Below, one piece after another: positions 6,394 through 58,192 of a stretch of 64,000 nt of DNA (its first letter is position 1; every line of letters starts with the position of its first letter). The stretch spans positions 310,001 through 374,000 of the forward strand of contig NZ_WVHS01000004.1 in assembly GCF_009834915.1 (NCBI RefSeq). Direction: 5' to 3'. Source of the stretch: Hufsiella ginkgonis. GTDB lineage: Bacteria; Bacteroidota; Bacteroidia; Sphingobacteriales; Sphingobacteriaceae. The notes beneath the pieces were generated by a model, which was not told the DNA's origin, did no database searches, and saw nothing but the letters and a program-made list of their open reading frames with translations. Position numbers and translations under genes: made by a program.

Positions 6394-6903
6394 CTATCTT
6401 AAATAAACCGCATCATTTTCGCCTTCATCGTCGAGTACCACGTCGACATGTTCACGGAGGACGGTAGAGATCTCGAGCCCGGTATAATCGGTAGAAACGG
6501 GGAAGATCCGGTGACTGCGGTCGACCAATACCATGGTGCGTAGTTTTGTTAACGGGATGTTGAGAAAAACACCCATGCCGTAGGCCAGCGTGCGGCCGCT
6601 GTTGAGCACGTCATCTGCAAGCACCACAGCCTTACCCGAGCAATCTTCTACCGGGATATCCGTACTTGCCTTCAGGTGACTGCTGTTTTTGTCGAGCGAG
6701 ATCCGCATCAGCAGCACTTTCAACCCCGAGATACGCTCCAGCACCTCCTTAATTCGCTTTGCAAGAGTAAAACCACAATCGGCTATCCCCGCTATTACGA
6801 TCTCCTCCTCATGCATATTATCTTCCCATACCTGGTAAGCCATGCGGTCGATCTTCTGGCTGATCTGTTTCTTGTTTAGAATGAGTAGCTTTTTTTCGGA
6901 CAT
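6394..6903 (-). CDS. PyrR-like phosphoribosyltransferase
   Basis: 169 aa, type I phosphoribosyltransferase fold. The PRPP-binding loop is VVLADDVLNSGRTL (93-106), with an upstream hood-like region MHEEEIVIAGIADCGFTLAK typical of PyrR/uracil phosphoribosyltransferase relatives. Closest by eye to the Bacteroidota phosphoribosyltransferases annotated as PyrR-like; RNA-binding regulation of pyr genes is not supported by anything nearby. Convergent with aroK (34-nt gap). A CATATTTAC box ends 4 nt before the start codon. Confidence 0.8.
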   Translation of the reverse strand: MSEKKLLILNKKQISQKIDRMAYQVWEDNMHEEEIVIAGIADCGFTLAKRIKEVLERISGLKVLLMRISLDKNSSHLKASTDIPVEDCSGKAVVLADDVLNSGRTLAYGMGVFLNIPLTKLRTMVLVDRSHRIFPVSTDYTGLEISTVLREHVDVVLDDEGENDAVYLR

Positions 6904-7423: not shown

Positions 7424-8863
7424 TTATGATTGTCCGGCGACGGTTAGCTCCAGCAGCGCCACGTTCTCCACATGCTGCGTATGCGGGAACATGTCTACGG
7501 GGCGAATCCTGGTCACGGTATATTTTTCTTTTAACAGTGCAATATCACGCGCTTGTGTCGCCGCGTTGCAGCTCACGTACACGATTTTCGCCGCGGCGAT
7601 CCCGAGCAGGCGCGCTACCACCTCCGGGTGCATGCCCGCCCTTGGCGGATCGGTGATCACCACATCAGGGCGACCTTGTTCCTGCACAAATTGAGGGGTT
7701 AGGATGTCTTTCATGTCGCCGGCGAAGAACCGCGTATTCTTTATGCCGTTGATCGCCGAATTTACATAAGCATCTTCGATAGCCGAGGGTACGTATTCAA
7801 CGCCGATCACCTCCTTCACCCCGCGCGCAACAAAATTGGCAATCGTGCCCGCGCCGGTATAGAGATCGTACACGCGTTCGTGGCCTTTAAGCCCGGCAAA
7901 TTCTTTCGTGATACGATACAATTCATTGGCCTGCACGGAATTCGTCTGGTAAAAGGATTTTGCGCCGATCTTAAAACGCAGCGGGGTTTCACCGGGAATC
8001 CCTGAATGCATTTCCTCGAAGATATGATCGCGACCCCGGAAGGTGCGGATCTCCTGGTCGAAGATGGTATCGTTCTTTTTCTGGTTAATGATGTACAGCA
8101 GGGAGGTGATCCCCGGGAAACGTCCGGCGACGAAACCCATCAGGCTTTCAACCTGCTCTTCCGCCGGGTAGGCGAATACGACAATGACCATGAGCTCGCC
8201 AGTAGAAGAGCTGCGTACGATGAGGTTACGCAAAGCGCCTTCGTGATTGCGGAGATCGTAAAACGATATGTTCTCCCGCAGCGCAAAGCCGCGGATCTCG
8301 TTCCGTATGGCGTTGGAAGGATCAGCTTGCAGGTGGCATTCGCGGATATCGAGGATCTTATCGAACCGGAGCGGTACGTGAAACCCCAGTGCAGGGCCGC
8401 CCGGTGCATTGTTGGTCACATCTTCCTGCGTGAGCCAGCGTTTATCTGAAAAGGTAAATTCAAGCTTGTTCCGGTAAAACCGGGTATTGACCGACGGCAG
8501 GATGGATTCGCATTGAGAAACGTCTACTCTGGCAAGACGCTGCAACGCATCGGTGACACTTTTTTGCTTAAACCTCAACTGTGCCTCATAGGTCATGTGC
8601 TGCCATTTACAACCGCCGCAAACCCCGAAATGGATACAAAACGCCTGCGTCCGGTGCGAAGAGAACTTTACCACGCTGTGAATGCGCGCCTCGAGAAATT
8701 TCTTCTTCTTGCGCATCACCTCCACGTTGACCACATCACCGGGAACACCTTTGTCGATGAAGATCACCAGATCGCCGTCTTTACCTACTCCTTTTCCTTC
8801 TTCGGCAATATCAATTACCTCAACTTGCTCTACGATCTTCCTCCCGGACTGGTTTGCTCTCAT
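7424..8863 (-). CDS. rlmD: 23S rRNA (uracil-C5)-methyltransferase, RlmD/TrmA family
   Basis: 479 aa from ATG 8863. An N-terminal TRAM-like domain (about 8-65) is followed by an iron-sulfur cluster segment with Cys76, Cys82 and Cys85 (FCIHFGVCGGCKWQ) and a SAM-dependent methyltransferase domain with VYDLYTGAGTIANFVA, DPPRAGMHP and the catalytic cysteine in VYVSCNAATQARD. It methylates U1939 or U747-type positions in 23S rRNA; which one cannot be fixed by eye. A TTG at 8872 would add three residues. Its 5' end overlaps a small ORF (8820-8954) in another frame. Confidence 0.93.
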   Translation of the reverse strand: MRANQSGRKIVEQVEVIDIAEEGKGVGKDGDLVIFIDKGVPGDVVNVEVMRKKKKFLEARIHSVVKFSSHRTQAFCIHFGVCGGCKWQHMTYEAQLRFKQKSVTDALQRLARVDVSQCESILPSVNTRFYRNKLEFTFSDKRWLTQEDVTNNAPGGPALGFHVPLRFDKILDIRECHLQADPSNAIRNEIRGFALRENISFYDLRNHEGALRNLIVRSSSTGELMVIVVFAYPAEEQVESLMGFVAGRFPGITSLLYIINQKKNDTIFDQEIRTFRGRDHIFEEMHSGIPGETPLRFKIGAKSFYQTNSVQANELYRITKEFAGLKGHERVYDLYTGAGTIANFVARGVKEVIGVEYVPSAIEDAYVNSAINGIKNTRFFAGDMKDILTPQFVQEQGRPDVVITDPPRAGMHPEVVARLLGIAAAKIVYVSCNAATQARDIALLKEKYTVTRIRPVDMFPHTQHVENVALLELTVAGQS

Positions 8864-8954
8864 GGGAGGCAAAAATAAGAAAATCTAGTTCTTCTATCTC
8901 AAAAGAAAACTCCTCGTCGATAAGCGCTGAAAATTCCATTATCTCCCGACTCAT
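8820..8954 (-). CDS. Possible 44-aa leader ORF overlapping the rlmD start
   Basis: ATG at 8954, TGA at 8822-8820. The peptide starts MSREIMEFSALIDEEFSF and is strongly acidic with a hydrophobic patch, ending REEDRRAS. It is the first ORF after a near-consensus promoter (8983-9013) and runs 44 nt into rlmD in a different frame, so ribosomes finishing it pass over the rlmD start. No known family. It may be a regulatory upstream ORF, a small protein, or chance. Confidence 0.35.
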   Translation of the reverse strand: MSREIMEFSALIDEEFSFEIEELDFLIFASHESKPVREEDRRAS

Positions 8955-19959: not shown

Positions 19960-19968
19960 TATTTTTGC
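19960..19968 (+). promoter_or_regulatory. -7 box 3 nt from a start codon
   Basis: TATTTTTGC, followed by GGG and the ATG at 19972. If used, transcription would begin at or next to the ATG. No TTTG at the expected distance (only TTTTAG). Confidence 0.45.
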
Positions 19969-19971
19969 GGG

Positions 19972-20361
19972 ATGAAATCAATGAACTTACTGCTGATCCC
20001 CGCGCTATCGCTTTGCGTGGCATGCGGGACCTCCGTTACCCCTGCAAAACTTTACGGAAAGTGGAACTATACACGGATCCAGAGCCTAAACTGGAACCCC
20101 GACAGCACCACCACCCGGGAGATTGAAATGCAAAAGCCGTATGTACAGTTTAACGAAAATAACTCGCTGGTGATGGTCTGGGGCGGCGATACCATATTAA
20201 AAGGCACGTTTAAGCCCTCCGGTGATAAGATCCTCGTTACACAGCGATTGACCGGCGGGAAAACCCGCGACTTTTATTTTAAGATCTTTAAACTTGCCGG
20301 CAACGAGCTGATCTTCGATTCCACCGACCGCGACCCAAGCCGTGTGTATACCAGGAAATAG
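19972..20361 (+). CDS. Small lipocalin-like lipoprotein
   Basis: 129 aa. Signal peptide with lipobox CVACG (Cys at 18 counted from ATG 19972; a second ATG at 19981 gives the same mature protein). The mature part has the lipocalin-like opening KLYGKWNYTRI followed by alternating strands and ends FDSTDRDPSRVYTRK. Likely a small periplasm-facing or surface lipoprotein binding an unknown ligand. Distinct from, and 32 nt after, the DUF5686 gene. Confidence 0.75.
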   Translation: MKSMNLLLIPALSLCVACGTSVTPAKLYGKWNYTRIQSLNWNPDSTTTREIEMQKPYVQFNENNSLVMVWGGDTILKGTFKPSGDKILVTQRLTGGKTRDFYFKIFKLAGNELIFDSTDRDPSRVYTRK

Positions 20362-20453: not shown

Positions 20454-20927
20454 ATGAAAAAACTAATCGCCGGAGCTTTCATACTCCTTTGCACACTGGC
20501 CTCCTCCTCCCACGCACAAGCCCCCAAACAACTGGCGGCCGATTTTAAAAAACTCGAATGGATTACCGGCACCTGGAACCGCACCAATGCAAAACCCGGA
20601 CGCTCGGGACACGAAAGATGGTTTAAAGTATCCGACACCGAGATCCGGGGCTTCGGTATCACTATGCGCGGCGCCGATACCGTATATGTAGAAAAACTGA
20701 AGCTGGTGGTGAGGGACGGCGGCATCTACTATTCGGCCGATGTTCCCGAAAACAAAGCACCGGTATTGTTTAAGCTCACCGAGATCAAAGAAGATAGTTT
20801 CACTTGCGAGAATGACGCAAACGAATTCCCCAAAAAGATCTGGTATGGCCGCACCGGCAATACCGTAAAAGCGGTGATCTCCGGCGGCGGGAAGTCTGTT
20901 GACTATCTGTTCGAGAAGAAATCCTGA
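20454..20927 (+). CDS. Secreted DUF6265-like protein
   Basis: 157 aa. Signal peptide cleaved after about residue 22 (LASSSHAQA). The mature domain has the pattern LEWITGTWNR...ERWFKVSDTEIRGFG...VYVEKLKLVVRDGGIYYSADV, a lipocalin-like beta-barrel known as DUF6265 and common in Bacteroidota. Function unknown. Its last 25 nt overlap the end of ribF on the opposite strand. A weak TATTTTCG box lies at 20433-20440. Confidence 0.78.
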   Translation: MKKLIAGAFILLCTLASSSHAQAPKQLAADFKKLEWITGTWNRTNAKPGRSGHERWFKVSDTEIRGFGITMRGADTVYVEKLKLVVRDGGIYYSADVPENKAPVLFKLTEIKEDSFTCENDANEFPKKIWYGRTGNTVKAVISGGGKSVDYLFEKKS

Positions 20928-21853
20928 GCGGCGGTCTTATCCTCGTCCAGTTGAAGGATCAGGCCTTCCAGTCCTTCAAATTTCCGGTCCTCCCGGATGA
21001 ATTTATGGAAATATACCCGGATGGTTTGCCCGTAAATGTCACTGTTAAAATCAAAAAGGTTGACCTCGATGTTCCGCGTCATCCCGTTAATGGTAGGCCG
21101 GTTGCCGATGTAGCCCATGCCCCGGTAAGTGACAGCCGGGTGTTCGCCGCTGGCAGGAATGGCTGCTTCTACCGCATAAATGCCGTCGCCGGGAATCAGC
21201 TTATATGATTCGGCCACAAAAAGATTGGCCGTAGGGTAGCCCAGGGTTCTTCCAAGCCGGTCGCCTTTTATCACCTTACCGGTGAGGTGGAAGGGATACC
21301 CGAGAAAATCGCGTGCAGCGTCTACCTTCCCGGAGAACAGCGCGTTGCGGATCCGCGTCGACGAAACCGCCACGTCATTAATGTCCTGCTCGGGGATCTC
21401 CTCCACTTCAAAACCGTATTCCGGGCCAAAACAGAGCAGGTCGGTAAATCCGCCGCTGCGGTCCTTGCCGAAGCGATGGTCATAGCCGATCACGATCCGG
21501 CGCGTGCCGATCTGCTGCACCAGCACCTGCTTTACATATTCGCGGGGCGATAAGTTGGAGAAATCCCTGGTAAAGGGCGTGATGACCAGGTGATCGATGC
21601 CAAATTGCGCGAGCAGCTCCGACTTTTCGGAGATGGTGGTCAGCATCTTCAGGCTTTGATCTTCGGGATGCAGGATCATTCGCGGATGCGGGAAAAAAGT
21701 AAGGATCACGGTCTCGCCATCAATCTGTCTCGCCACTTCCTTTAGCCGGTCGATGATCTTCTGGTGGCCGATATGTACCCCGTCAAAAGTCCCGATGGTT
21801 ACCACCGCATTCTTTACGGGGCTGAACTCTTTAATATCGTGATAGATCTTCAT
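20903..21853 (-). CDS. ribF: Bifunctional riboflavin kinase / FMN adenylyltransferase
   Basis: 316 aa, the standard length. N-terminal nucleotidyltransferase domain with VTIGTFDGVHIGHQKIIDRL and YDHRFGKDRSGG; C-terminal flavokinase with DRLGRTLGYPTANL and IYAVE. Makes FMN and FAD from riboflavin. It starts 16 nt after truB and is co-transcribed with it, a common arrangement. The 3' end overlaps a convergent gene by 25 nt. Confidence 0.96.
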   Translation of the reverse strand: MKIYHDIKEFSPVKNAVVTIGTFDGVHIGHQKIIDRLKEVARQIDGETVILTFFPHPRMILHPEDQSLKMLTTISEKSELLAQFGIDHLVITPFTRDFSNLSPREYVKQVLVQQIGTRRIVIGYDHRFGKDRSGGFTDLLCFGPEYGFEVEEIPEQDINDVAVSSTRIRNALFSGKVDAARDFLGYPFHLTGKVIKGDRLGRTLGYPTANLFVAESYKLIPGDGIYAVEAAIPASGEHPAVTYRGMGYIGNRPTINGMTRNIEVNLFDFNSDIYGQTIRVYFHKFIREDRKFEGLEGLILQLDEDKTAAQDFFSNR

Positions 21854-21869
21854 GGTGCTGTTAACGAGG

Positions 21870-22586
21870 CTAAATTAATTCACCAGCTTCTTTCAGTTCC
21901 CGGATGTGCGTTACCAGCTCCATTACTTCGAAGGCGCCGGCAACATCCAGCCCCCCGCTTTTGGTGCGGCGCAAAGCCGAAAGATAGGCGCCGTTGTCCA
22001 GGGCTTTACCGAAATCGTGCACGAGCGACCGGATATAGGTCCCCTTGCTGCATGTCACCTCGAAGTCGACCTCGGGCAACGCAACACGCGTGATCGAAAA
22101 CGTTGAAATATGCACTTTGCGCAGCCTCAGCTCCACTTCCTCACCCCTGCGGGCTTTTTCATACAGGCGCTCCCCGTTAATTTTAACGGCCGAATGTGCG
22201 GGGGGATATTGCTCGGTATCGCCGATAAACCGGGCACAATTTTCGCGAACCTGCGCTTCGGTAAGCGCAGAGATGTCAAACTGCCCTTCCGGCGCGGTCT
22301 CCAGGTCGTATGAAGGCGTGGTAGCGCCAAGGACCATGGTACCGGTATACGTCTTATCCTGTGCCTGGAACGTGTCTATCTTTTTAGTGAGCTTGCCCGT
22401 GCAGATCACCAGCAGCCCTGTAGCAAGCGGATCGAGCGTACCTGCGTGACCCACTTTCAGCTTCAGCGGTTTAAATGCGTTGCGGATCTTTCCCACTACA
22501 TCGAAGCTTGTCCAGCGGTACGGCTTATTGATCAGCAGCACCTCTCCTTCCGCAAAGTGGAAAGTTTTAAATTTAGTAGTTGTCAA
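21870..22586 (-). CDS. truB: tRNA pseudouridine-55 synthase
   Basis: 238 aa. Contains GEVLLINKPYRWTSFDVVGK, the catalytic aspartate in HAGTLDPLATGLLVI, and GTYIRSLVHDFG. Modifies U55 in the tRNA T-loop. There is no ATG in a plausible place: the start is TTG at 22586, 3 nt after a TATCTTTGC box, so the message may be leaderless. Heads the truB-ribF operon. Confidence 0.94.
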   Translation of the reverse strand: MTTTKFKTFHFAEGEVLLINKPYRWTSFDVVGKIRNAFKPLKLKVGHAGTLDPLATGLLVICTGKLTKKIDTFQAQDKTYTGTMVLGATTPSYDLETAPEGQFDISALTEAQVRENCARFIGDTEQYPPAHSAVKINGERLYEKARRGEEVELRLRKVHISTFSITRVALPEVDFEVTCSKGTYIRSLVHDFGKALDNGAYLSALRRTKSGGLDVAGAFEVMELVTHIRELKEAGELI

Positions 22587-22589
22587 GGT

Positions 22590-22598
22590 GCAAAGATA
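22590..22598 (-). promoter_or_regulatory. -7 box of truB, 3 nt from its TTG start
   Basis: Minus strand TATCTTTGC, then ACC, then TTG. The upstream element at the expected distance is TTTTAG rather than TTTG. It is divergent from the box of the next gene, 34 bp away. Confidence 0.5.
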
Positions 22599-22606
22599 AC
22601 CGGGAT

Positions 22607-22640
22607 TTTGATAGCCTAAAATCCGAATTGGTATATTTAC
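22607..22640 (+). promoter_or_regulatory. Promoter of the MG2-like gene, 3 nt from its ATG
   Basis: TTTG (22607-22610), 21 nt, TATATTTAC (22632-22640), then TGC and the ATG at 22644. Both elements are in place, and the predicted transcript starts at or beside the start codon. Confidence 0.55.
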
Positions 22641-22643
22641 TGC

Positions 22644-25064
22644 ATGAGGACATTGCCCTGCCTGCTGGTTTGCGTATTACTTTACCTGTGCTTCTCCGTT
22701 ACCGTGCACGCCCAGGACCTTTTTACAGATTCCGTGGTGCGCAAACTGAGTGATTACCATGCGGGTAACTCCTCGCCCGCCTTGTTTTTACATTTCGACA
22801 AGAACGTGTACACCGCCAATGAAACGGCCTGGTTTACCGCGTACCTGCTTAACCGTCCTGCTACGGACACCACCCATACGTTATCTGTTTCGCTGGTGAG
22901 CGATGCCGATCGTACCGTAGTGCTTAAGCGCGAGTTCCTGGTGTTTAATGGTCTCGCCTTTGGCGACCTTTCGGTCCCCGATTCGCTGCCTGCGGGCAGG
23001 TACCACTTTAACGCATTTACCAACCACGTGGTCAACGGAATTCCCCAAAGCGCGTTTACCCAGCCCATCACGCTGAAAACTACCACCGAGCCGCCGTTCC
23101 AGGCCTCCCTAAAGCTGTTAGATACCGTAGCCGCCGACGGATTTTACAAGGTGCTGTTCGAGGGCTTTACCAAAGACAAGATGTTATTAAAAAATGCGGC
23201 GTTATCTTACAACGTTACACCAGGAGAAACGGTCAAAGCCCGCACCAACGAAAGAGGCGAATACCTTGTTCATATTCCCATAAAAGATGTTACCGCACTA
23301 AACAACACCTTGCGATTAACGGTATCGTGGCAAAAGGACAAACAGGGCCTGAGTGTCAGGCTGCCCGTCGCCCCGGCAGAAACAACGCTCAGGTTTTATC
23401 CCGAAGGCGGATATCTCATTGATGCAACGCCTTGTATAGTGGGCTGGGAAGCCAAAAGGCCCGGCGGGATACCCGTTCAGCTAACGGGGGTATTATTTTG
23501 CGACGGCGCACCGGCCGACACGATCTTTACCAGCAGCCTCGGAATTGGCAAGTTCCTGCTTACTCCCGTAAAAGGAAGCACTTATTTTATCCGTCCATTT
23601 GAACACAACCTGGCCGGGAAGGATTGGCCGCTGCCCCTTGCCATAGACAGGAGCCCGGCGATATCCGCCAACCGCAGCGTGGTCGACGACACGCTGAAAG
23701 TCACCGTCAGGAATATTGAAAAAGGCGGCCGGTTAGTGCTTCATAATTTCAATGAAGTATTTATTTCGAAACCGATCCCGGCAGGAGGATATCGCGCCAG
23801 TTTCAAGATCGCGCTTGATGGGCTGCCCCGCGGTCTTGCCGCGCTCACCATTTTCGACGAGGAGGATCGCCCTCGCGGCGAACGGCTCATTTTTGCGCAC
23901 TATAACCAACGGGAAGCGCTGACTGCTACCACCGATAAGCCTGAGTACAAACCGCGCGAAAAGGTAACGCTATCCCTCTTGCTAAAAGACGCCGCGGGAA
24001 AACCGCTGCGGGGGATAGTTTCTATAGCTTGTGTGCAGGAAAACCGGCTGGAAACGGGAAACGTGACTGATATCGAAACTTATGCTTACCTGGTCCGCCT
24101 GCTTGGAAATCTGCCGGCCGACCCGATGGGCGAATGGGCCCGGAACAAAGGATACATCGAGAATATCCTACTGGTAAAGGGCTGGCGCAAATATAGCTGG
24201 CAGGAAGCGATGGCCGGCAAGCCGGCGCAGCCGGTTAACTATCAGTCACTGCAATTTACCGGGTCGGTTACTTATTTCAAAAAGCCGCTGAAGAAACCTG
24301 TCGCCGTAAGCCTTTTACGCGACTCTGCATTTTCCCTGCTTCAAACCGACAAAACAGGGACTTTTTTGCCCGCCATCCGCGACCTAATTCTTGCCCCTGA
24401 TAAAAAGCTGCTCATCTCGGTAAATGAAAAGCAATATGCAGGTTACGACGTCAGGTTGAACGATCCATACTTGCCCGTGAGCGCCCGGCTTGCCCGGGAA
24501 CAGGATGCCCCGGATGTGGCGGCCGCGGCGATCAACACCACCGGATCCCTGCTCATTAACCGGAACGAACGCACCATTATGATGAAGGAGATCAGCCTGA
24601 CCTCGAAAAAAGACGATAACCTCTTCGGGACCCGCGGGTTCGGGGTAAATGCCTGCGGAGATTATGTATGCATGTACAATATTCTAAACTGCCCCAATCA
24701 TAACGGGGCGTATGGAAACAAGGAACCTGTGGAAGGAAGGATCTACCTGTCAAACGGCGCCAGGGTCGTTTATTCCGGCTGTGTAAATAGCGCGAAAAAA
24801 GACGACCACGTGATCAGGGCCACCGGGATTTACCTGAACAAAGAGTTTTATGGCTCTGACTATTCGGAACTCAGCCCTTCGCAACCAGAATATTTTTCTA
24901 CGATCTTCTGGAAACACGGCCTGCTGCTCAACGAAGACGGAACCGCATCAGCACAGTTCTATACCAGCGATATCACGGGGAGGTTTAAAGTTGTCGTCCA
25001 GGGCCTTACCAGTAACGATGTGGTATTTGGTGAACAGGCTTTCACCGTCACGAAACCGAAATAA
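22644..25064 (+). CDS. Large secreted MG2-like protein
   Basis: 806 aa with a signal peptide to about residue 23 (VTVHAQDLF). The N-terminal domain resembles the MG2 macroglobulin-type domains of Bacteroidota envelope proteins (SPALFLHFDKNVYTANETAW, FTAYLLNR). Several beta-sandwich modules follow, one starting near 420 (ATTDKPEYKPREKVTLSLLL). Relatives carry a TonB-plug-like segment near the C-terminus; here the corresponding part (about 650-720) is a Cys-rich stretch (NACGDYVCMYNILNCPNH, YSGCVNSAKK). The end, GRFKVVVQGLTSNDVVFGEQ, resembles the usual terminal module. Probably exported to the periplasm or surface; role unknown. Confidence 0.75.
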   Translation: MRTLPCLLVCVLLYLCFSVTVHAQDLFTDSVVRKLSDYHAGNSSPALFLHFDKNVYTANETAWFTAYLLNRPATDTTHTLSVSLVSDADRTVVLKREFLVFNGLAFGDLSVPDSLPAGRYHFNAFTNHVVNGIPQSAFTQPITLKTTTEPPFQASLKLLDTVAADGFYKVLFEGFTKDKMLLKNAALSYNVTPGETVKARTNERGEYLVHIPIKDVTALNNTLRLTVSWQKDKQGLSVRLPVAPAETTLRFYPEGGYLIDATPCIVGWEAKRPGGIPVQLTGVLFCDGAPADTIFTSSLGIGKFLLTPVKGSTYFIRPFEHNLAGKDWPLPLAIDRSPAISANRSVVDDTLKVTVRNIEKGGRLVLHNFNEVFISKPIPAGGYRASFKIALDGLPRGLAALTIFDEEDRPRGERLIFAHYNQREALTATTDKPEYKPREKVTLSLLLKDAAGKPLRGIVSIACVQENRLETGNVTDIETYAYLVRLLGNLPADPMGEWARNKGYIENILLVKGWRKYSWQEAMAGKPAQPVNYQSLQFTGSVTYFKKPLKKPVAVSLLRDSAFSLLQTDKTGTFLPAIRDLILAPDKKLLISVNEKQYAGYDVRLNDPYLPVSARLAREQDAPDVAAAAINTTGSLLINRNERTIMMKEISLTSKKDDNLFGTRGFGVNACGDYVCMYNILNCPNHNGAYGNKEPVEGRIYLSNGARVVYSGCVNSAKKDDHVIRATGIYLNKEFYGSDYSELSPSQPEYFSTIFWKHGLLLNEDGTASAQFYTSDITGRFKVVVQGLTSNDVVFGEQAFTVTKPK

Positions 25065-25085
25065 AGAGTTAACCGGCACTACCGC

Positions 25086-25880
25086 TCAAATCACCTGCAA
25101 AGACCGTCCTGATAACAGGATCGCCAGGATGATCACCCCTACTACGATCCGGTACCATCCGAAAGCTACAAAGCCTTTCTTTTGCAGGAAGGTGATAAAC
25201 GACCTGATCGCAAGGATCGCTACTAAAAAAGCCACGACGTTGCCGATAGCCAGGAGCTTGATCTCCTCGCCGGTGAGCGGGTAACCGTCTTTGTAAAAAT
25301 CGTACAGCTTTTTAGCTGTTGCACCGAACATGGTGGGTACAGCAAGAAAGAACGAGAACTCGGCTGCCGCTTTCCGGGTAAGGCCCTGGGTCATACCGCC
25401 TACAATACTCGCCGCGGAGCGGGAAGTGCCGGGGATCATCGCGAGGCATTGGAACAATCCTATCTTAAGAGCCTGGAGGTAAGTCACTTCGTCGGTCGAT
25501 CCGGTTCCCGAATTTTTAAACCATTTGTCGGTAAATAGCAGGATCACCCCGCCTACCAGCAGCGCGATGGCGACACCCATGGCATTTTCGAGCAGCTGAT
25601 CGATCTTATCGCTTAACAGCACCCCCAACACCACCGCCGGAACAAATGCCACCAGCAGCTTAAAATAAAACTGGAACGATTGGAAAAAACGCTGGAAGTA
25701 AAGCACCACCACCGAAAGAATCGCACCTAACTGGATGGCCACGATGTACAATTTTACGAATTCTTCGGAGCCAATCCCCATTAGGGCAGAACCGAGGATC
25801 ATGTGCCCGGTAGACGATACCGGCAAAAACTCCGTCAGGCCCTCGATGACGGCCAGGACGATTGCTTGTGCTGTAGTCAT
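25086..25880 (-). CDS. uppP: Undecaprenyl-diphosphatase
   Basis: 264 aa BacA/UppP-type integral membrane phosphatase recycling undecaprenyl diphosphate to the carrier used for peptidoglycan and other wall polymers. Signature motifs: [17 protein letters not shown] near the N-terminus and [15 protein letters not shown]. About eight membrane helices. It starts 2 nt after the DUF3098 gene stop, third in the ftsX-DUF3098-uppP unit. Confidence 0.97.
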
Positions 25881-25882
25881 GC

Positions 25883-26107
25883 CTACTTGCGGAGAATAGC
25901 TACAAAACCGATGGCGAAGCCGGCAAGCACTACGATCGGGGCCAGCACGATTTTACGGAAACTATAAATATCGGTGGTGCCCGTCATCAGGATAAAGCCC
26001 AACAAAACAACACCAATGCAGAGCAGCATGAGCCGGTAATTTGTTTTACCAAAAACGAACTCAACCTGTTTGGTTTCTGTTGCAGGTGCATTTTTTTTCT
26101 GTGCCAT
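25883..26107 (-). CDS. DUF3098 small membrane protein
   Basis: 74 aa with two membrane helices (about 28-45 and 53-70), a short polar N-terminus and the family signature [20 protein letters not shown] with [14 protein letters not shown]. Conserved in Bacteroidota between ftsX and uppP, as here (1 and 2 nt spacings). Function unknown; position suggests a part in envelope or division work. Confidence 0.92.
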
Positions 26108-26108
26108 A

Positions 26109-26987
26109 TTATCTGTAAAGATTATGAATTTTTAGACTTAAATATTTGCTGACCGCGAAATAGGTGCTTAATCCAGAGATCAGGATCCCGGCTACGATCA
26201 CACCAAGGAACACCACACCAAACTCGAACCAATTGCGGAGTATCACCAATTCAGGCACCTGCTGCTGCGCGAGGTAAAGGATCCCCATCAGCAGGATGAT
26301 GGAAATAAGACCGGCAAGCAACCCGTGCAGAATGCCATACCCGAGGAACGGGTTACGGATAAAGTTCCGCGTAGCGCCTACCAACTGCATACTTTTGATT
26401 AAAAAACGCTGTGAATAAATAGCGAGCCGGATGGTATTATTAATTAACGCGATGGCGATAACAGTAAGAATAATGGCAAATGCCAGGATCACCAGGCCGA
26501 TGAGCCTTACATTCTGGTTCACCGTGTCGATCAGCGATTTCTGGTAGATCACCTCTTTCACCAGCTGATTCTTCTCCAGCTGGCTGCTAAAAGTTTCGAT
26601 GCTGGCGTTGTTGGCATAATCAGCCTTCATGTACACATCGATAGAGGAAAGCAACGGGTTATATCCAAGGAACTCCACGAAGTCCTCTCCCAGGTCGCGG
26701 GTAAGGTTATGAGCGGCAAGTTCTTTACTAACATATTGTGTTTTAAGCACATACGGATTTGCATCGATCTGCCGTTTCAGCGCCTGGATATCCACTTCAC
26801 GGGCACCGTCGTTCACGATGATGTTCAGCACAATATTTTCTTTCACATAATTGGAAAGACCGCGGGCATGTACCAGGATCAAACCGAGCAATCCAAGCAT
26901 CAGCAATACCAGCGAGATACTGATCACCGTAGAAATATAGATCGTTTTCGTCTTTTTTGCCGAGGTGCTGTCCTCAAATTCTTCCAT
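26109..26987 (-). CDS. ftsX: Cell-division protein FtsX
   Basis: 292 aa. FtsX topology: helix 1 (about 18-42), an extracytoplasmic domain (about 45-165) and three C-terminal helices (about 170-192, 222-245, 262-285). Motifs NTIRLAIYSQRFLIKSMQLVGA and FIRNPFLGYGILHGL are typical of Bacteroidota FtsX. With FtsE it activates wall hydrolases at division; ftsE is not in this window. First gene of a unit with DUF3098 and uppP, with a promoter at 27006-27034. Confidence 0.93.
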   Translation of the reverse strand: MEEFEDSTSAKKTKTIYISTVISISLVLLMLGLLGLILVHARGLSNYVKENIVLNIIVNDGAREVDIQALKRQIDANPYVLKTQYVSKELAAHNLTRDLGEDFVEFLGYNPLLSSIDVYMKADYANNASIETFSSQLEKNQLVKEVIYQKSLIDTVNQNVRLIGLVILAFAIILTVIAIALINNTIRLAIYSQRFLIKSMQLVGATRNFIRNPFLGYGILHGLLAGLISIILLMGILYLAQQQVPELVILRNWFEFGVVFLGVIVAGILISGLSTYFAVSKYLSLKIHNLYR

Positions 26988-36704: not shown

Positions 36705-36733
36705 TTTTGACTTATAAGTGCAAATACCTTTGC
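36705..36733 (+). promoter_or_regulatory. Possible promoter of tamB, 3 nt from a TTG start
   Basis: TTTTG (36705-36709), 15 nt, TACCTTTGC (36725-36733), AGC, then TTG at 36737. The spacing between elements is shorter than the 17-21 nt seen elsewhere in the window. Confidence 0.45.
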
Positions 36734-36736
36734 AGC

Positions 36737-39700
36737 TTGAAAAAAATCGGACTTATTTCTCTAAAGGTGATACTATGGCTCATCGGAATCGTCATCTTCC
36801 TGGTGATACTCCTTTTCGTCCTGATCCGCGTCCCAGCCGTGCAGAATTTCGCAAGAAAAAAAGCCGTTAATTATCTGGAAGGCAAGATCGGCACCAAGGT
36901 GGAGATCAACAAGATCAGCCTCAATCTTCCCAAACTACTGGTACTCGAAGATGTGTATTTCGAAGACCAGCGGAAAGATACCCTGATTGCAGGCGATACC
37001 CTGAAGGTAGACATCAGCCTGCTTAAATTGCTCGACAACAAACTCGAGATCAACGAGATCGATCTGCGTGGCGTTACCGCGAACATCAGCCGGACGGCCG
37101 ATAGTGTTTTCAACTATGATTACATCGTGAAAGCATTCGCAGGTGAGCAAAAAAAAACGCCTAAGCCCGAAGACACCACTTCTACTATGAAGTTTTCGAT
37201 CGATAAGATCAACCTCGACCGAATCCGCGCCAGGTTTAAAGATGCCATCACCGCAAATGACGCCGATGTGTATCTGGGCCATTTTGACACCCGCGTGAAG
37301 GACTTCGATCTTGACAAGATGAAGTTTTCGATTCCCGCGATCCGTTTATCGGGGCTAAACGCAAAGATCCTTCAAACCAAGCCGCTTGCCGCCGCCGAGC
37401 CTGCCGCGGTTGATTCCGCTGAGGCGACACAGCCTTTTAATATGGACCTGCAGCTGGGGACTATTGACCTCAACCGCATCAGCGTAGATTACCGGAATGA
37501 TGTCTCGGCTATTAAGGCGACCATCGATATCCCAAAGATGGAAGCTGAAACCGATAAAATTGACCTACGCAACCAACGGGTCGACCTTCGGAACATTACG
37601 CTCGAAAACGCCGGCATCCTATTCGTGCTCGGTAAAAAAGAACAAGCTAAAGTAGTGGCCAATGAGGCTGCAAAAGAAGCTTCCTCCGCGGCAGCCAACT
37701 GGCGGGTGTTTGCAGATGAGATCGCGCTGACCAATAACAATATCCGCTTCGATAATTATAACCTCCCCGTGCAAAAACGCGGGATGGATTTTGCACACCT
37801 CGATATTAAGCAGTTAAGTATCGGCCTGGAAAAGCTGGTGTACGGGATCGATACCATCTCGGGCACTATTAATTCCGGCAGTTTCAGCGAGAAAAGCGGG
37901 TTTAGCTTAAAAGAGTTGAAAACGAAATTCTTTTACGGAGCAAAAGCGGCGTACCTCGACGACCTTTACGCCCGCACCTCCAGGTCGATCCTGCTGAACA
38001 ATATCCGGCTGGAATATCCCTCTATCGAATCGCTGACGAAAAATCCCGGCGAGCTGCGGGTCGACGCCAACCTGGATGGCAGCCGGCTGGGATTACGCGA
38101 TGTACTCACCTTTATGCCAACCATGGCGACAATGAACCCATTTAAGAGCTCGCCGGATGCTATACTTAACATTGATGGAAAAGTAAACGGGCTTGTAAAG
38201 GACCTTAACATTCCCAGTTTACGCATATCAGGCTTCCGAAACACGCGTGTGGTCGCCTCTGCGCGGATAAAGGGGCTGCCGGATATGAATAAGGCCTATT
38301 TTGATGTAAAGATCAACGATTTTACCACCCATAGCGCTGACATTTTCGCGTTAGCCCCTCCGGGAACCATCCCCGCAAATATCCGGCTCCCCGAGTCTAT
38401 AAAGCTGAAAGGTACATTTAAAGGCGGCGTAACGTCTTTCACGACTGATCTGGATCTCAACTCAAGCTTCGGCAGTGCCAAAACAGTGGCATTTTACAAT
38501 GCAAAAGTAAAGGGCAGCGAAAAGTACAAAGCCAATATCAAGCTCTTCAACTTTAATGCAGGCAGGCTGATCAAACAGGATACCACGATCGGAAAGATAA
38601 CGATGGTAGCCAACGTGGCAGGAACGGGGCTGGACCCTAAAAAGCTGACTGCCAATTTTGACGGCAAAGTGATCCGTGCCGAATACAATCACTATGGCTA
38701 CCGTAATCTCGTGGTTAAAGGGTCGGCGCGCAATGGCGACATCGCCGCTACCGCGAACATGACCGATGCGAACCTGGACTTCGACCTGGATATGACAGCC
38801 AATCTTTCGCAAAAATACCCCCGGGTGAAACTGGTGCTGGATCTGGATAGCGCAAACCTTCAACAACTGCACTTCATGAAGGATGATCTTCGCTTTCACG
38901 GTAAACTGGTAGCTGATCTCGCAACCGCCGATCCCGATTATCTTAACGGCACGATCGATCTCACCAATGCAGTGATTGCCCGTGGCCGTGAACGATACCA
39001 GCTGGATTCTGTAAGCGTGGTTTCTACCGCCACTGCCGACAGCAATACCCTGAAGCTGCGCTCTGAGATCCTTTCGGCAAACGTTGCCGGAAAGTATAAG
39101 CTTACCCAGGTCGGTTTCGCTTTGCAGGACCTTGTGAACAGGTATTTCGCGATCGGAGCTCCGCCGGCAAAACCTTACGTGTACGACCCGCAGGTAATGA
39201 CATTTAACGCAAAATTGGCAAATGGACCACTGCTCGCTAAATTTGTTCCCGACCTGAAAGAGCTCGCAACCGTAAATATTTCGGGCAGGTTTAACAGCGC
39301 AGCAGGAGAATTGATCGTGAACGCATCGGCTCCGCGTGTACTCTACGGCACCAACGACCTGAATAACCTGCAGTTCTCGCTGAACACCGGTAACAACGCG
39401 CTCAATTATTCAGCCAGCGTAGCAAGAGTAGCCACGCCGCAGCTCCAGCTGTTAAATACCACCATCAGCGGAAAAGCACAGAATAATATATTAACAACCG
39501 ATGTACAGGTAAAGGATAAAGACAAAAAACTTCATTACCGGATCGCGGGTGCGCTGACATCGTCGAACCCCGACTTTCGTTTTACGTTACAACCCGACGG
39601 GCTGATGCTCAACTACCAGCCCTGGACGGTCGGATCGGGTAACGAGATCCGCTTTGGCGGCAACGGCATCGAAGCTACCAACTTTGTGCTTTCCAACGCC

Positions 39701-41812
39701 AATCAGCGGTTAAGCGTTAATACGACCCCGCCTGGCTTAAACAACCCGTTAAAGATCGACTTCAGTAATTTCAAGATAGAAACGCTTACGTCGATCATTA
39801 AAAAAGATTCATTGCTGGTGGGCGGTACCATTAACGGGACCGCGCTGGCCAGTAACCTGCAGGCCTCGCCTACCTTCACCGCAGATATGAACGTCCGCGA
39901 TTTTAACTTCCGCGGCGATACCCTGGGAAACGTGGCCATGAAAGTAAACAACGAAAGGCCAAATGTTTTTGCGGCGAACGTAAGCATCACCGGCAATGGG
40001 AACCAGCTTTTGCTCAACGGCAATTATAACACGGGTTCCAGCAGTTTCGATATGGACCTGGATATCGCGAATCTTAACATCAAAAGTATCGAAGGGTTTA
40101 CGTTTGGCGCCATTAACAATTCGCGCGGAAGCATTAATGGCAAACTAAAGATCACCGGTACCGCTGATGCCCCAAAAATCCGCGGCGGCGTAAACTTTAA
40201 CCAGGCCGGGTTCAGGGTGGTGATGCTTAACTCCGACTTCCGCATACGCGACAACCAGGTGGCGTTCAACGAAGAGGGTATCGGGTTCAAAGACTTCACG
40301 GTGATCGACTCGGCCGGAAATACCGCTTCACTCCAGGGTACTATTTACACCAAAACCTACACAGACTACCGGTTCGACCTTGACCTGAACGCCGATAATT
40401 TCAGGGCCATCAACTCTACGGCAAAAGACAATGAACTCTATTACGGCCAGGTATACCTGAACAGCCGGCTGCATATCGGCGGTACCATAACCTCCCCTAC
40501 CGTAGACGGCAGCCTGAAAGTGAATGAAAAAACCAAGTTCACCATCGTACTGCCGCAAACCGACCCCGCTATTGAAGAGCGCGAAGGCATCGTGGAGTTC
40601 GTAGACATGGATAATCCCGACCTCGCGGCGATCCTCAGCTCGAAACTCGACTCGCTCAATCAATCGACGATCACCGGCATGGACGTGTCCATGAACCTCG
40701 AGGTGGATAAAAATGCGGAATTCAACATCATCATCGATGAGGGTAACGGCGATTTCCTGAAAGTAAGGGGCGAGGCACAGCTCAACGCAGGTATCGACCC
40801 CAGCGGGAAAATTACGCTCACCGGAACTTATAACCTCGAAGAAGGCGCTTACGAGCTTTCCTTCAACTTCCTGAAACGTCGCTTCGAGATTAAAAGAGGA
40901 AGCACCATGACCTGGACGGGCGAGCCCACCACGGCCGACGTAAACCTGACCGCCACCTACGTGGCCAACACATCTCCGCTCGACCTGGTGGACAATACGC
41001 TTGGCGATGCGCCTGCTTCGCAGCGAAATACCTACAAGCAGAAACTACCGTTCGAAGTAAATCTTACCATGAAAGGAGAACTGCTAAAGCCCGAGATCTC
41101 CTTTGATATCGTGCTTCCCGAACGGAACTATAACGTATCTTCCGAAGTGACCGGCACAGTAAACGACCGTCTTACCCAGCTGCGCCAGGAGCCTTCGGAA
41201 TTGAACAAACAAGTATTTGCGCTGCTCCTCCTTAACCGGTTCGTAGGCGAGAACCCGTTCGCCAGCAGTGCCAGCGGTGGTGGCGGTGCAGCCACGCTCG
41301 CCAGGCAAAGTGTAAGCAAGCTGCTTTCCGAGCAATTAAACAATCTTGCCGGCGACCTGATCGGCGGTGTGGAGCTTAATTTTGACCTCGAGTCGACCGA
41401 AGATTATACTACCGGCCAACTGGCAAACCGGACAGATCTGAATGTCGGTCTCTCCAAACGTTTGCTGAATGACCGCCTTAAGGTGAATATCGGCAGCAAC
41501 TTCGAGCTCGAAGGGCCAAAACAACCCGGGGCGCGCACCAGTAACCTTGCGGGCGACGTATCCGTGGAATACCAGCTTTCCAAGAATGGCCGTTACCTGC
41601 TCCGCGCCTACCAGAAAAACGAATACCAGGTGGCGCTCCAGGGCCAGGTGATAGAAACGGGGGTCGGCTTCGTGCTTACCATGGATTATAACCGGTTTAA
41701 AGAGATCTTCCAGCAACGTACGCAAGAAGACAAGCGACGCAGGCGTGCCGAACGCGACGCAAAAAAAGAAGCCAAGAAAGAGGAAAAAAAAGAAGACAAA
41801 ACAGATGAATAA
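36737..41812 (+). CDS. tamB: TamB-family translocation and assembly module protein
   Basis: About 1,691 aa. One N-terminal membrane anchor (VILWLIGIVIFLVILLFVLI), an AsmA-like start (VEINKISLNLPKLLVLEDVY), a very long repetitive beta-strand region forming the hydrophobic groove typical of bridge-like lipid-transfer proteins, and the C-terminal TamB domain (LTGTYNLEEGAYELSF, LPFEVNLTMKGELLKPEISF, FALLLLNRFVG). No ATG exists near the 5' end; TTG at 36737 fits the anchor, TTG 36707 and GTG 36767 are alternatives. It spans the envelope and works with TamL in outer-membrane protein or phospholipid transport. It overlaps tamL by 8 nt. Confidence 0.94.
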   Translation: MKKIGLISLKVILWLIGIVIFLVILLFVLIRVPAVQNFARKKAVNYLEGKIGTKVEINKISLNLPKLLVLEDVYFEDQRKDTLIAGDTLKVDISLLKLLDNKLEINEIDLRGVTANISRTADSVFNYDYIVKAFAGEQKKTPKPEDTTSTMKFSIDKINLDRIRARFKDAITANDADVYLGHFDTRVKDFDLDKMKFSIPAIRLSGLNAKILQTKPLAAAEPAAVDSAEATQPFNMDLQLGTIDLNRISVDYRNDVSAIKATIDIPKMEAETDKIDLRNQRVDLRNITLENAGILFVLGKKEQAKVVANEAAKEASSAAANWRVFADEIALTNNNIRFDNYNLPVQKRGMDFAHLDIKQLSIGLEKLVYGIDTISGTINSGSFSEKSGFSLKELKTKFFYGAKAAYLDDLYARTSRSILLNNIRLEYPSIESLTKNPGELRVDANLDGSRLGLRDVLTFMPTMATMNPFKSSPDAILNIDGKVNGLVKDLNIPSLRISGFRNTRVVASARIKGLPDMNKAYFDVKINDFTTHSADIFALAPPGTIPANIRLPESIKLKGTFKGGVTSFTTDLDLNSSFGSAKTVAFYNAKVKGSEKYKANIKLFNFNAGRLIKQDTTIGKITMVANVAGTGLDPKKLTANFDGKVIRAEYNHYGYRNLVVKGSARNGDIAATANMTDANLDFDLDMTANLSQKYPRVKLVLDLDSANLQQLHFMKDDLRFHGKLVADLATADPDYLNGTIDLTNAVIARGRERYQLDSVSVVSTATADSNTLKLRSEILSANVAGKYKLTQVGFALQDLVNRYFAIGAPPAKPYVYDPQVMTFNAKLANGPLLAKFVPDLKELATVNISGRFNSAAGELIVNASAPRVLYGTNDLNNLQFSLNTGNNALNYSASVARVATPQLQLLNTTISGKAQNNILTTDVQVKDKDKKLHYRIAGALTSSNPDFRFTLQPDGLMLNYQPWTVGSGNEIRFGGNGIEATNFVLSNANQRLSVNTTPPGLNNPLKIDFSNFKIETLTSIIKKDSLLVGGTINGTALASNLQASPTFTADMNVRDFNFRGDTLGNVAMKVNNERPNVFAANVSITGNGNQLLLNGNYNTGSSSFDMDLDIANLNIKSIEGFTFGAINNSRGSINGKLKITGTADAPKIRGGVNFNQAGFRVVMLNSDFRIRDNQVAFNEEGIGFKDFTVIDSAGNTASLQGTIYTKTYTDYRFDLDLNADNFRAINSTAKDNELYYGQVYLNSRLHIGGTITSPTVDGSLKVNEKTKFTIVLPQTDPAIEEREGIVEFVDMDNPDLAAILSSKLDSLNQSTITGMDVSMNLEVDKNAEFNIIIDEGNGDFLKVRGEAQLNAGIDPSGKITLTGTYNLEEGAYELSFNFLKRRFEIKRGSTMTWTGEPTTADVNLTATYVANTSPLDLVDNTLGDAPASQRNTYKQKLPFEVNLTMKGELLKPEISFDIVLPERNYNVSSEVTGTVNDRLTQLRQEPSELNKQVFALLLLNRFVGENPFASSASGGGGAATLARQSVSKLLSEQLNNLAGDLIGGVELNFDLESTEDYTTGQLANRTDLNVGLSKRLLNDRLKVNIGSNFELEGPKQPGARTSNLAGDVSVEYQLSKNGRYLLRAYQKNEYQVALQGQVIETGVGFVLTMDYNRFKEIFQQRTQEDKRRRRAERDAKKEAKKEEKKEDKTDE

Positions 41813-57278: not shown

Positions 57279-58181
57279 TTAGCAATTCAGCTTCCCATCC
57301 ACTATCGCCAGTCCGTCAACAAACGAGCGTGGCCGATACGACAAAATTTTCACCGCCTTATCCAGCACAAACCCGGTACGTGCAGGCCTTTTTGCGGGCT
57401 GTTCCAGCGATGCGGAGGCCACCGGCGAGATCAGTGAAGTGTCCAATTTCCAGAAATTCGCCACCATCCTGGCAAGCTCCAATACGCTCATCATTTCGTT
57501 TCCCGATACATGGTACAGTCCGAACGCACGTTTCATCGCCGCCAGGATACAGGCTTCCGCCAGGTCTTCCGCAAGTGTAGGCATTCTCCACTGATCATCC
57601 ACCACCCGGATGGGAATTTGTTTTTCCAGCGAAGACTTTACCCAAAGCACCACATTGCTGCGGCTAAGATTACCCGTCACCCCATACACCAGTATCGTAC
57701 GGATGATCGTCCATTTGCACCCCGATTTCTCCAGCGCCTGCTCCCCGGCCAGCTTGCTTTTACCGTAGTAGCTCAATGGACCCGGTGCCGCATTTTCGTC
57801 GTACGGACCATTTTCGCCATCAAATACGAAATCGGTGGAAAGGTGTACCAGGTGAATATCCAGTTCCTTACAGCTATCGGCCAGGTACTGCACCGCGTGT
57901 ATGTTCACCAGGTCGCACCCTAGGCGATCAGACTCGCACGCATCCGGGTTAGCCATCGCAGCGGTATTGATCACCACATCAGGTTTGATGGAACCGATCA
58001 CCTGCCGCACCTCGGCCTCGTCGGTAATATCCATCGGCAGGTAAATGTACCCATCCTTTACCGGGAAACGATTGCCGCCACGCGAGGTGGCCACCAGCAC
58101 AAAATCACGCTTCGCCAGGAAACGTTCCGTGATCTTTTGTCCGAGAAGGCCGTTGCTGCCGGTGACGAGGATTTTAAGCAT
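57279..58181 (-). CDS. RmlD-like NAD(P)-dependent sugar-nucleotide reductase
   Basis: 300 aa, extended SDR/RmlD family. Rossmann motif LVTGSNGLLGQKIT, INTAAMANPDACESD, LSTDFVFDGENGPYDE and the catalytic YYGKSKLAGEQAL (YxxxK). Resembles dTDP-4-dehydrorhamnose reductase, but no other rml gene is near, so the substrate is unknown. A TATCTTCGC box (58184-58192) ends 2 nt before the ATG. Expressed alone; upstream lies a repeat cluster. Confidence 0.87.
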   Translation of the reverse strand: MLKILVTGSNGLLGQKITERFLAKRDFVLVATSRGGNRFPVKDGYIYLPMDITDEAEVRQVIGSIKPDVVINTAAMANPDACESDRLGCDLVNIHAVQYLADSCKELDIHLVHLSTDFVFDGENGPYDENAAPGPLSYYGKSKLAGEQALEKSGCKWTIIRTILVYGVTGNLSRSNVVLWVKSSLEKQIPIRVVDDQWRMPTLAEDLAEACILAAMKRAFGLYHVSGNEMMSVLELARMVANFWKLDTSLISPVASASLEQPAKRPARTGFVLDKAVKILSYRPRSFVDGLAIVDGKLNC

Positions 58182-58183
58182 AG

Positions 58184-58192
58184 GCGAAGATA
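58184..58192 (-). promoter_or_regulatory. -7 box 2 nt from the RmlD-like start
   Basis: Minus strand TATCTTCGC, then CT, then ATG at 58181. A close match to the box used elsewhere; the upstream DNA is the repeat cluster. Confidence 0.4.

Follow-up and report, generated by a model that had tools for sequence, protein, structure and literature searches.

Promoter elements directly before start codons in Hufsiella ginkgonis and their conservation in particular genes

The divergently transcribed genes truB and MG2 (the latter named here after the domain of its product) in Hufsiella ginkgonis, a member of the Sphingobacteriaceae (Bacteroidota), raise the question of whether a promoter can stand so close to a gene that its mRNA begins on the start codon. 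Both genes lie in a stretch of 64,000 nucleotides (positions 310,001 to 374,000 of contig NZ_WVHS01000004.1; hereafter the window), which is part of a genome of 5,208,024 bases in 25 contigs. An initial annotation of the window had described boxes similar to TAnnTTTG, the −7 element of the Bacteroidota primary sigma factor, a few nucleotides before the start codons of these two genes and of four others, and had proposed a class of leaderless mRNAs, two of which would begin with TTG. In Bacteroidota, where Shine-Dalgarno pairing plays little part, leaderless mRNAs are reported to form a small class. On the spacing and conservation of the element described below, we consider it highly probable that a minority of genes, those with TAnnTTTG 3–8 nt before the start codon, would give leaderless or nearly leaderless mRNAs.

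Spacing between the −7 element and the start codon

Spacings were collected from the window and 60 stretches of 20 kb each, together 1.264 of the 5.208 Mb (GC content 50.8%). In this sample, 874 genes were called by a home-made caller from codon usage alone, with no promoter information. Distance was counted from the G of TAnnTTTG to the start codon, and the expectation is the mean of 16 permuted motifs. The element is found at 3, 4, 5, 6, 7 and 8 nt in 7, 8, 5, 7, 3 and 4 genes, respectively, or in 34 of the 874 genes against ∼1.7 expected. The spacing is bimodal, with only 6 genes at 9–15 nt after these 34, followed by a broad hump of leadered genes (65 at 16–40 nt). A start rule favoring the longer open reading frame gives 40, 7 and 78 genes in the three ranges (3–8 vs 9–15 nt, P = 6e-8; 9–15 vs 16–22 nt, P = 2e-6). 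The same shape is observed in eight relatives from the same family (100 kb each, 474 genes), where 16 genes have the element at 3–8 nt (5 of them at 3 nt and 8 at 4 nt) and 5 genes at 9–15 nt. Counts in raw DNA give a mixed picture. Genome-wide, the pattern TANNTTTGCNNNATG occurs 46 times, compared to 9 times for the reversed pattern; within the window there are 18 copies of TANNTTTGC against 11.6 expected, a number attained in 5 of 100 shuffles. The peak at short distance that was predicted for a leaderless class is therefore present; it rises above background with a gap behind it, which is the sequence proxy for leaderless mRNA, and its spacing is also kept across genera, as described in the next section.

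In Flavobacterium johnsoniae, the −7 element, for which the σABfr consensus is given as TAnnTTTG or TAHHTTTG, spans −12 to −5, transcription starts 4 or 5 nt after its G, and a TTTG element at −33 is reported as weak (available text of PMC6847099). With this published promoter spacing, from which the +1 positions below are inferred, a box 4 nt before ATG would place +1 on the A of the start codon. A −7 element of the primary sigma factor at 3–8 nt would thus start transcription at the start codon or within ∼4 nt of it, corresponding to leaders of ∼0–4 nt, with a slightly shorter promoter spacing needed at 3 nt. The gap at 9–15 nt would correspond to leaders of ∼4–11 nt, which seem to be avoided.

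The genes with a proximal box (43 under the most inclusive start rule) are functionally mixed by eye; guaA and a nuoA-like gene are also among them, and an over-representation of RNA-modification genes is thus not demonstrated. Two variants of the element behave differently in the same sample. TAnnTTCG displays some proximal excess, with 10 genes at 3–8 nt (1.67 per nt, against 0.86 at 9–15 nt and 0.44 at 16–40 nt), and is possibly another promoter form. For the TATATTTA-type variant, in which the last G is replaced by A, the values in the H. ginkgonis genome are 1.67, 1.29 and 1.36 per nt, with no clear proximal excess. A separate observation concerns two genes of 72 aa each (L016:2590-2829 and L016:9604-9843), located ∼7 kb apart and identical in their first 70 residues, each of which has boxes 6 and 30 nt ahead of its start.

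Conservation of the proximal box by gene

To follow the box gene by gene, six genes were compared with loci of the same family, using the 30 best-scoring loci per gene (the H. ginkgonis locus included) and counting a box as proximal if it stands 3–8 nt before an in-frame start; permuted control motifs gave no more than 2 of 30 for any gene. A proximal box is present in 25 of 30 loci for rlmN, 27 for an rlmI-like gene and 22 for rlmD, compared to a single locus each, that of H. ginkgonis itself, for truB and tamB, and none for MG2, its own locus included. In 20 further family genomes (of the 30 remaining family matches), rlmN has a proximal box in 17, exactly 4 nt from the start in 11; in other families of the class (20 of 25 matches covered), the numbers are 14 and again 11 of 20. 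Where the same genes retain such a layout across many genera, promoter noise would not account for it. The assignments of rlmN and rlmD exceed the NCBIfam cut-offs, while the rlmI-like gene is best matched by RlmI at a score below the cut-off. One of these genes, rlmD (23S rRNA uracil-1939 C5-methyltransferase; 7424–8863, minus strand; TIGR00479, 340.6 bits, cut-off 183.55), lies in the window. Its box, TATTTTTG (8870–8877, minus strand), matches the consensus exactly, 6 nt before the ATG at 8863, and is a conserved proximal box within the window that the initial annotation had overlooked.

The conserved form of divergent proximal promoters, as predicted from these loci, is not truB/MG2; it is a pair formed by a csaA-like gene with a tRNA-binding domain (PF01588) and the rlmI-like gene. 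In H. ginkgonis these divergent neighbors start 101 bp apart (C1:379036-379138), and their boxes lie 5 and 4 nt, respectively, before ATG. Of the 30 rlmI loci, 13 contain the csaA-like gene, divergent in all 13, and in 8 of these both starts are 3–6 nt from their boxes. Conserved short spacing is therefore a property of rlmN, rlmI-like, rlmD and csaA-like, and is not observed for truB, tamB or MG2.

Several results weigh against a leaderless class. The caller placed truB, MG2, the gene starting at 19972 and tamB at internal starts, and since it misplaces starts in this way, the gene counts and the proximal share of 4–5% (34, 40 or 43 of 874 genes, depending on the start rule) are approximate. 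The 30 loci per gene are the best-scoring ones, not a random draw, and the rlmI-like gene and rlmD were picked because of their own proximal boxes. Genome-wide, the GTG equivalent of the proximal pattern occurs 9 times vs 10 for the control, the TTG pattern TANNTTTGCNNNTTG shows no excess (15 sites vs 23), and the looser TANNTTTGN{3,6}ATG occurs 268 times vs 250. No clear peak emerges from the raw spacing spectrum obtained without gene calls (20 at spacing 4, where the control mean is 12.8 and the largest control value 25). The proximal box of truB is absent from all 29 relatives compared and from all 14 further relatives (14 of 20 loci could be parsed). The raw spectra and the loose TANNTTTGN{3,6}ATG pattern, which was also run phylum-wide on 296 genomes, are too noisy, and our conclusions are not based on them.

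An orthologue check that depends less on the choice of genes points in the same direction as the rlm loci. It covered H. ginkgonis genes with orthologue-like matches in the available DNA of relatives. Six of seven such genes with a proximal box also have one in at least one orthologue; this becomes 4 of 5 without the rlmI-like gene and rlmD, which were fetched on purpose, and 3 of 5 if a case based on a TTG candidate is dropped. The corresponding numbers are 0 of 12 for leadered genes and 4 of 53 for genes without a box (Fisher test against the leadered set, P = 0.002 for 4/5 and P = 0.015 for 3/5).

The start codons delimit the class further. For rlmN, rlmI-like and rlmD, the proximal boxes counted above add up to 105 (25+27+22+17+14); 74 of them precede ATG, 31 precede GTG and none precedes TTG. 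The start is nearly always ATG in rlmI-like and rlmD, and GTG or ATG in rlmN, such that the restriction to AUG of canonical leaderless mRNAs does not hold for rlmN, nor for truB and tamB with their TTG. Three of the nine genomic GTG sites lead frames of more than 300 codons, namely rlmN, a dprA-like gene and a 327-codon gene. By contrast, 12 of the 15 TTG sites lead frames of at most 32 codons, one leads a 109-codon frame of no assigned identity, and the remaining two lead truB and tamB. Based on the genome-wide counts and the genes led by these sites, the putative class comprises ATG and, for some genes, GTG starts, whereas membership of TTG is unsupported. A TTG-leaderless class was therefore dropped: the sites are fewer than in the control, truB and tamB are the only identified genes among them, and neither is conserved. 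The proposed leaderless class thus holds as a sequence pattern, with stable members that would include rlmN, rlmI-like, rlmD and csaA-like, while a subgroup of mRNAs beginning with TTG is not supported, and the truB/MG2 pair on which it had been displayed is a weak example.

The sites first cited and alternative explanations

Each of the six cited sites was read directly and scored against TAnnTTTG, and three match exactly. The boxes between truB and MG2 are where they had been reported, but only that of truB fits the consensus. It reads TATCTTTG (in its 9-nt form TATCTTTGC; 22590–22598, minus strand) and lies 4 nt (cacc) before the TTG at 22586. The MG2 candidate, TATATTTA (22632–22639, plus strand; 4 nt before the ATG at 22644), has one mismatch, an A in place of the near-invariant final G of the −7 element. 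The other two exact boxes belong to the gene starting at 19972 (TATTTTTG, 19960–19967, plus strand, 4 nt before ATG) and to tamB (TACCTTTG, 36725–36732, plus strand, 4 nt before the TTG at 36737). The proximal box of an RmlD-like sugar reductase (57279–58181, minus strand; PF04321, 236.7 bits) is a variant of the TAnnTTCG type with one mismatch (T to C), TATCTTCG (58185–58192, minus strand), 3 nt before the ATG at 58181. The site at a phosphoribosyltransferase (ATG at 6903, minus strand), CATATTTA, has two mismatches by eye, and scoring found no nearby box with one mismatch or fewer. The six fixed bases of a σABfr promoter (T-12, A-11, T-8, T-7, T-6 and G-5, with no G at −10 or −9) are all present at truB, the 19972 gene, tamB and rlmD; the MG2 site lacks the last of them. 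The 19972 gene (19972–20361, plus strand) encodes 129 aa with a signal-peptide-like N-terminus (by eye) and no family match.

For tamB (36737–41812, plus strand; PF04357, 235.6 bits), a leadered transcript is no less likely than a leaderless one. The TTG start is an unusually conserved rare start codon, present at the aligned position in all 30 family loci including its own, while the proximal box is confined to H. ginkgonis. An AACATTT element recurs ∼45 nt upstream of tamB in about 15 of the 30 loci (by eye, own included), and H. ginkgonis has TGATTTTG, one mismatch from the consensus, 27 nt before the TTG. We give an even chance to the explanation that the proximal box is incidental and that transcription starts from this older upstream TGATTTTG, within AAACATTT-N7-TTTTG, which would yield a leader of ∼22 nt ahead of an ordinary TTG start. 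However, H. ginkgonis has an exact consensus box at the favored proximal spacing, and the upstream element is not exact.

The truB gene (tRNA pseudouridine 55 synthase; 21870–22586, minus strand; TIGR00431, 200.7 bits, cut-off 151.45) has a different context. The TTG at 22586 has no ATG, GTG or TTG in frame upstream of it, and is the sole such codon ahead of the N-terminal residues conserved in 29 relatives. Over the 120 nt upstream, no box other than TATCTTTGC has one mismatch or fewer. Among 29 loci of relatives, uppP lies upstream of truB on the same strand in 28, and ribF follows truB in all 29; the start-to-start distance of 794–833 nt in 19 relatives indicates that uppP and truB are nearly abutting there. 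In H. ginkgonis, the two are parted by MG2 (22644–25064, plus strand; 806 aa; PF01835, 41.2 bits), with uppP/BacA at 25086–25880 (minus strand; PF02673, 257.2 bits) and ribF (FAD synthetase/flavokinase; 20903–21853, minus strand) downstream of truB. At 20903–26987 of the window, an MG2 gene has been inserted into the gene order ftsX-uppP-truB-ribF, which other members of the family commonly show. Neither a match to MG2 nor a divergent truB/MG2 arrangement was found in the truB loci of the relatives. The 30 MG2 loci contain no proximal box, and only three relatives (∼34% identity) are likely orthologues. Since MG2 splits uppP from truB, the operon position of truB is lost, and for this reason the truB box probably functions as a promoter. 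It would be a recent one, probably restricted to a single lineage and formed after the operon split, which would leave truB with its only recognizable promoter 4 nt before TTG. In some relatives, candidate truB starts are also TTG or GTG, with the box at least 14 nt away. A contig scan with TruB returned five distant loci only and was not used.

It is also conceivable, though we lean against it, that ordinary promoters came to lie 4 nt before truB and tamB by chance, and that the resulting mRNAs are translated inefficiently or begin at other positions. The deficit of TTG sites relative to the control and the absence of TTG among the conserved cases agree with such an origin, and random promoter placement would predict an estimated ∼0.45 TTG genes of this kind per genome. 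The sample contains two TTG candidates at spacing 4 vs 0.25 expected (P = 0.026). The lost operon position of truB, its single recognizable box and the lack of another start codon ahead of its conserved N-terminus oppose this explanation. It is very improbable that proximal boxes in general mark additional promoters within longer transcripts whose main mRNAs are leadered. Another exact box does lie 119 nt upstream of rlmD, and a second box at 13–42 nt occurs in 8 of the 43 proximal genes, but a second promoter would neither need a fixed spacing of 3–8 nt over many genera nor leave a gap at 9–15 nt.

Significance and comparison with known systems

If the spacing is kept over genera, leaderless initiation, including initiation at GTG, could be tested on a short list of genes (rlmN, rlmI-like, rlmD and csaA-like), and the spacing rule could serve to correct the annotation of start codons. 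The case of truB suggests that a gene cut from its operon may gain a promoter at its very start. In a more far-reaching reading, certain genes, among them three 23S rRNA methyltransferases and the csaA-like/rlmI pair, would be under stable selection for leaderless initiation. As a guess, this might provide feedback on ribosome maturation, with ribosome-modifying enzymes being made by ribosomes that prefer leaderless mRNA (for instance immature, unmodified or bS21-poor ones). The conservation of the layout is observed, but we regard this reading as a whole as unlikely.

Leaderless mRNAs with non-AUG starts occur in mycobacteria, where they begin with GTG. The predicted 5′ ends of rlmN and the dprA-like gene are similar in this respect, whereas TTG at the 5′ end is unsupported as a class in H. 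ginkgonis.

The closest parallels are within the phylum. In the available text of PMC6847099, PMC9723704 and PMC7366714, 5.5% of mRNAs are leaderless in F. psychrophilum, ∼3.7% of 5′ untranslated regions (UTRs) are shorter than 10 nt in Bacteroides thetaiotaomicron, and in F. johnsoniae 13% have a leader of 10 nt or less. These species share with H. ginkgonis the TAnnTTTG promoters and a small minority with little or no leader (here 34–43 of 874 genes). They differ in that their 5′ ends are those of mapped transcripts, while ours are predicted from sequence. In the same texts, rlmN, rlmI and rlmD are not mentioned and conservation between genera is not a topic, and the available text of PMC12186496 and PMC12641178 does not describe rlmN as leaderless. 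Our literature search, whose scope excluded supplementary tables and most subscription papers, found no report of rlmN, rlmI-like, rlmD or csaA-like as leaderless. The phenomenon itself is thus already known in the phylum, and its gene-by-gene conservation over many genera is what we did not find reported within that scope.

A more distant analogy is provided by the TA-led leaderless genes predicted in Actinobacteria and Deinococcus-Thermus, according to the available text of PMC3160421, where signals of Bacteroidetes are classed as atypical. The logic is the same, in that a promoter element ∼10–12 nt before the start codon indicates a leaderless mRNA. The element there is a −10 box, however, and the share of such genes exceeds 20% in those phyla.

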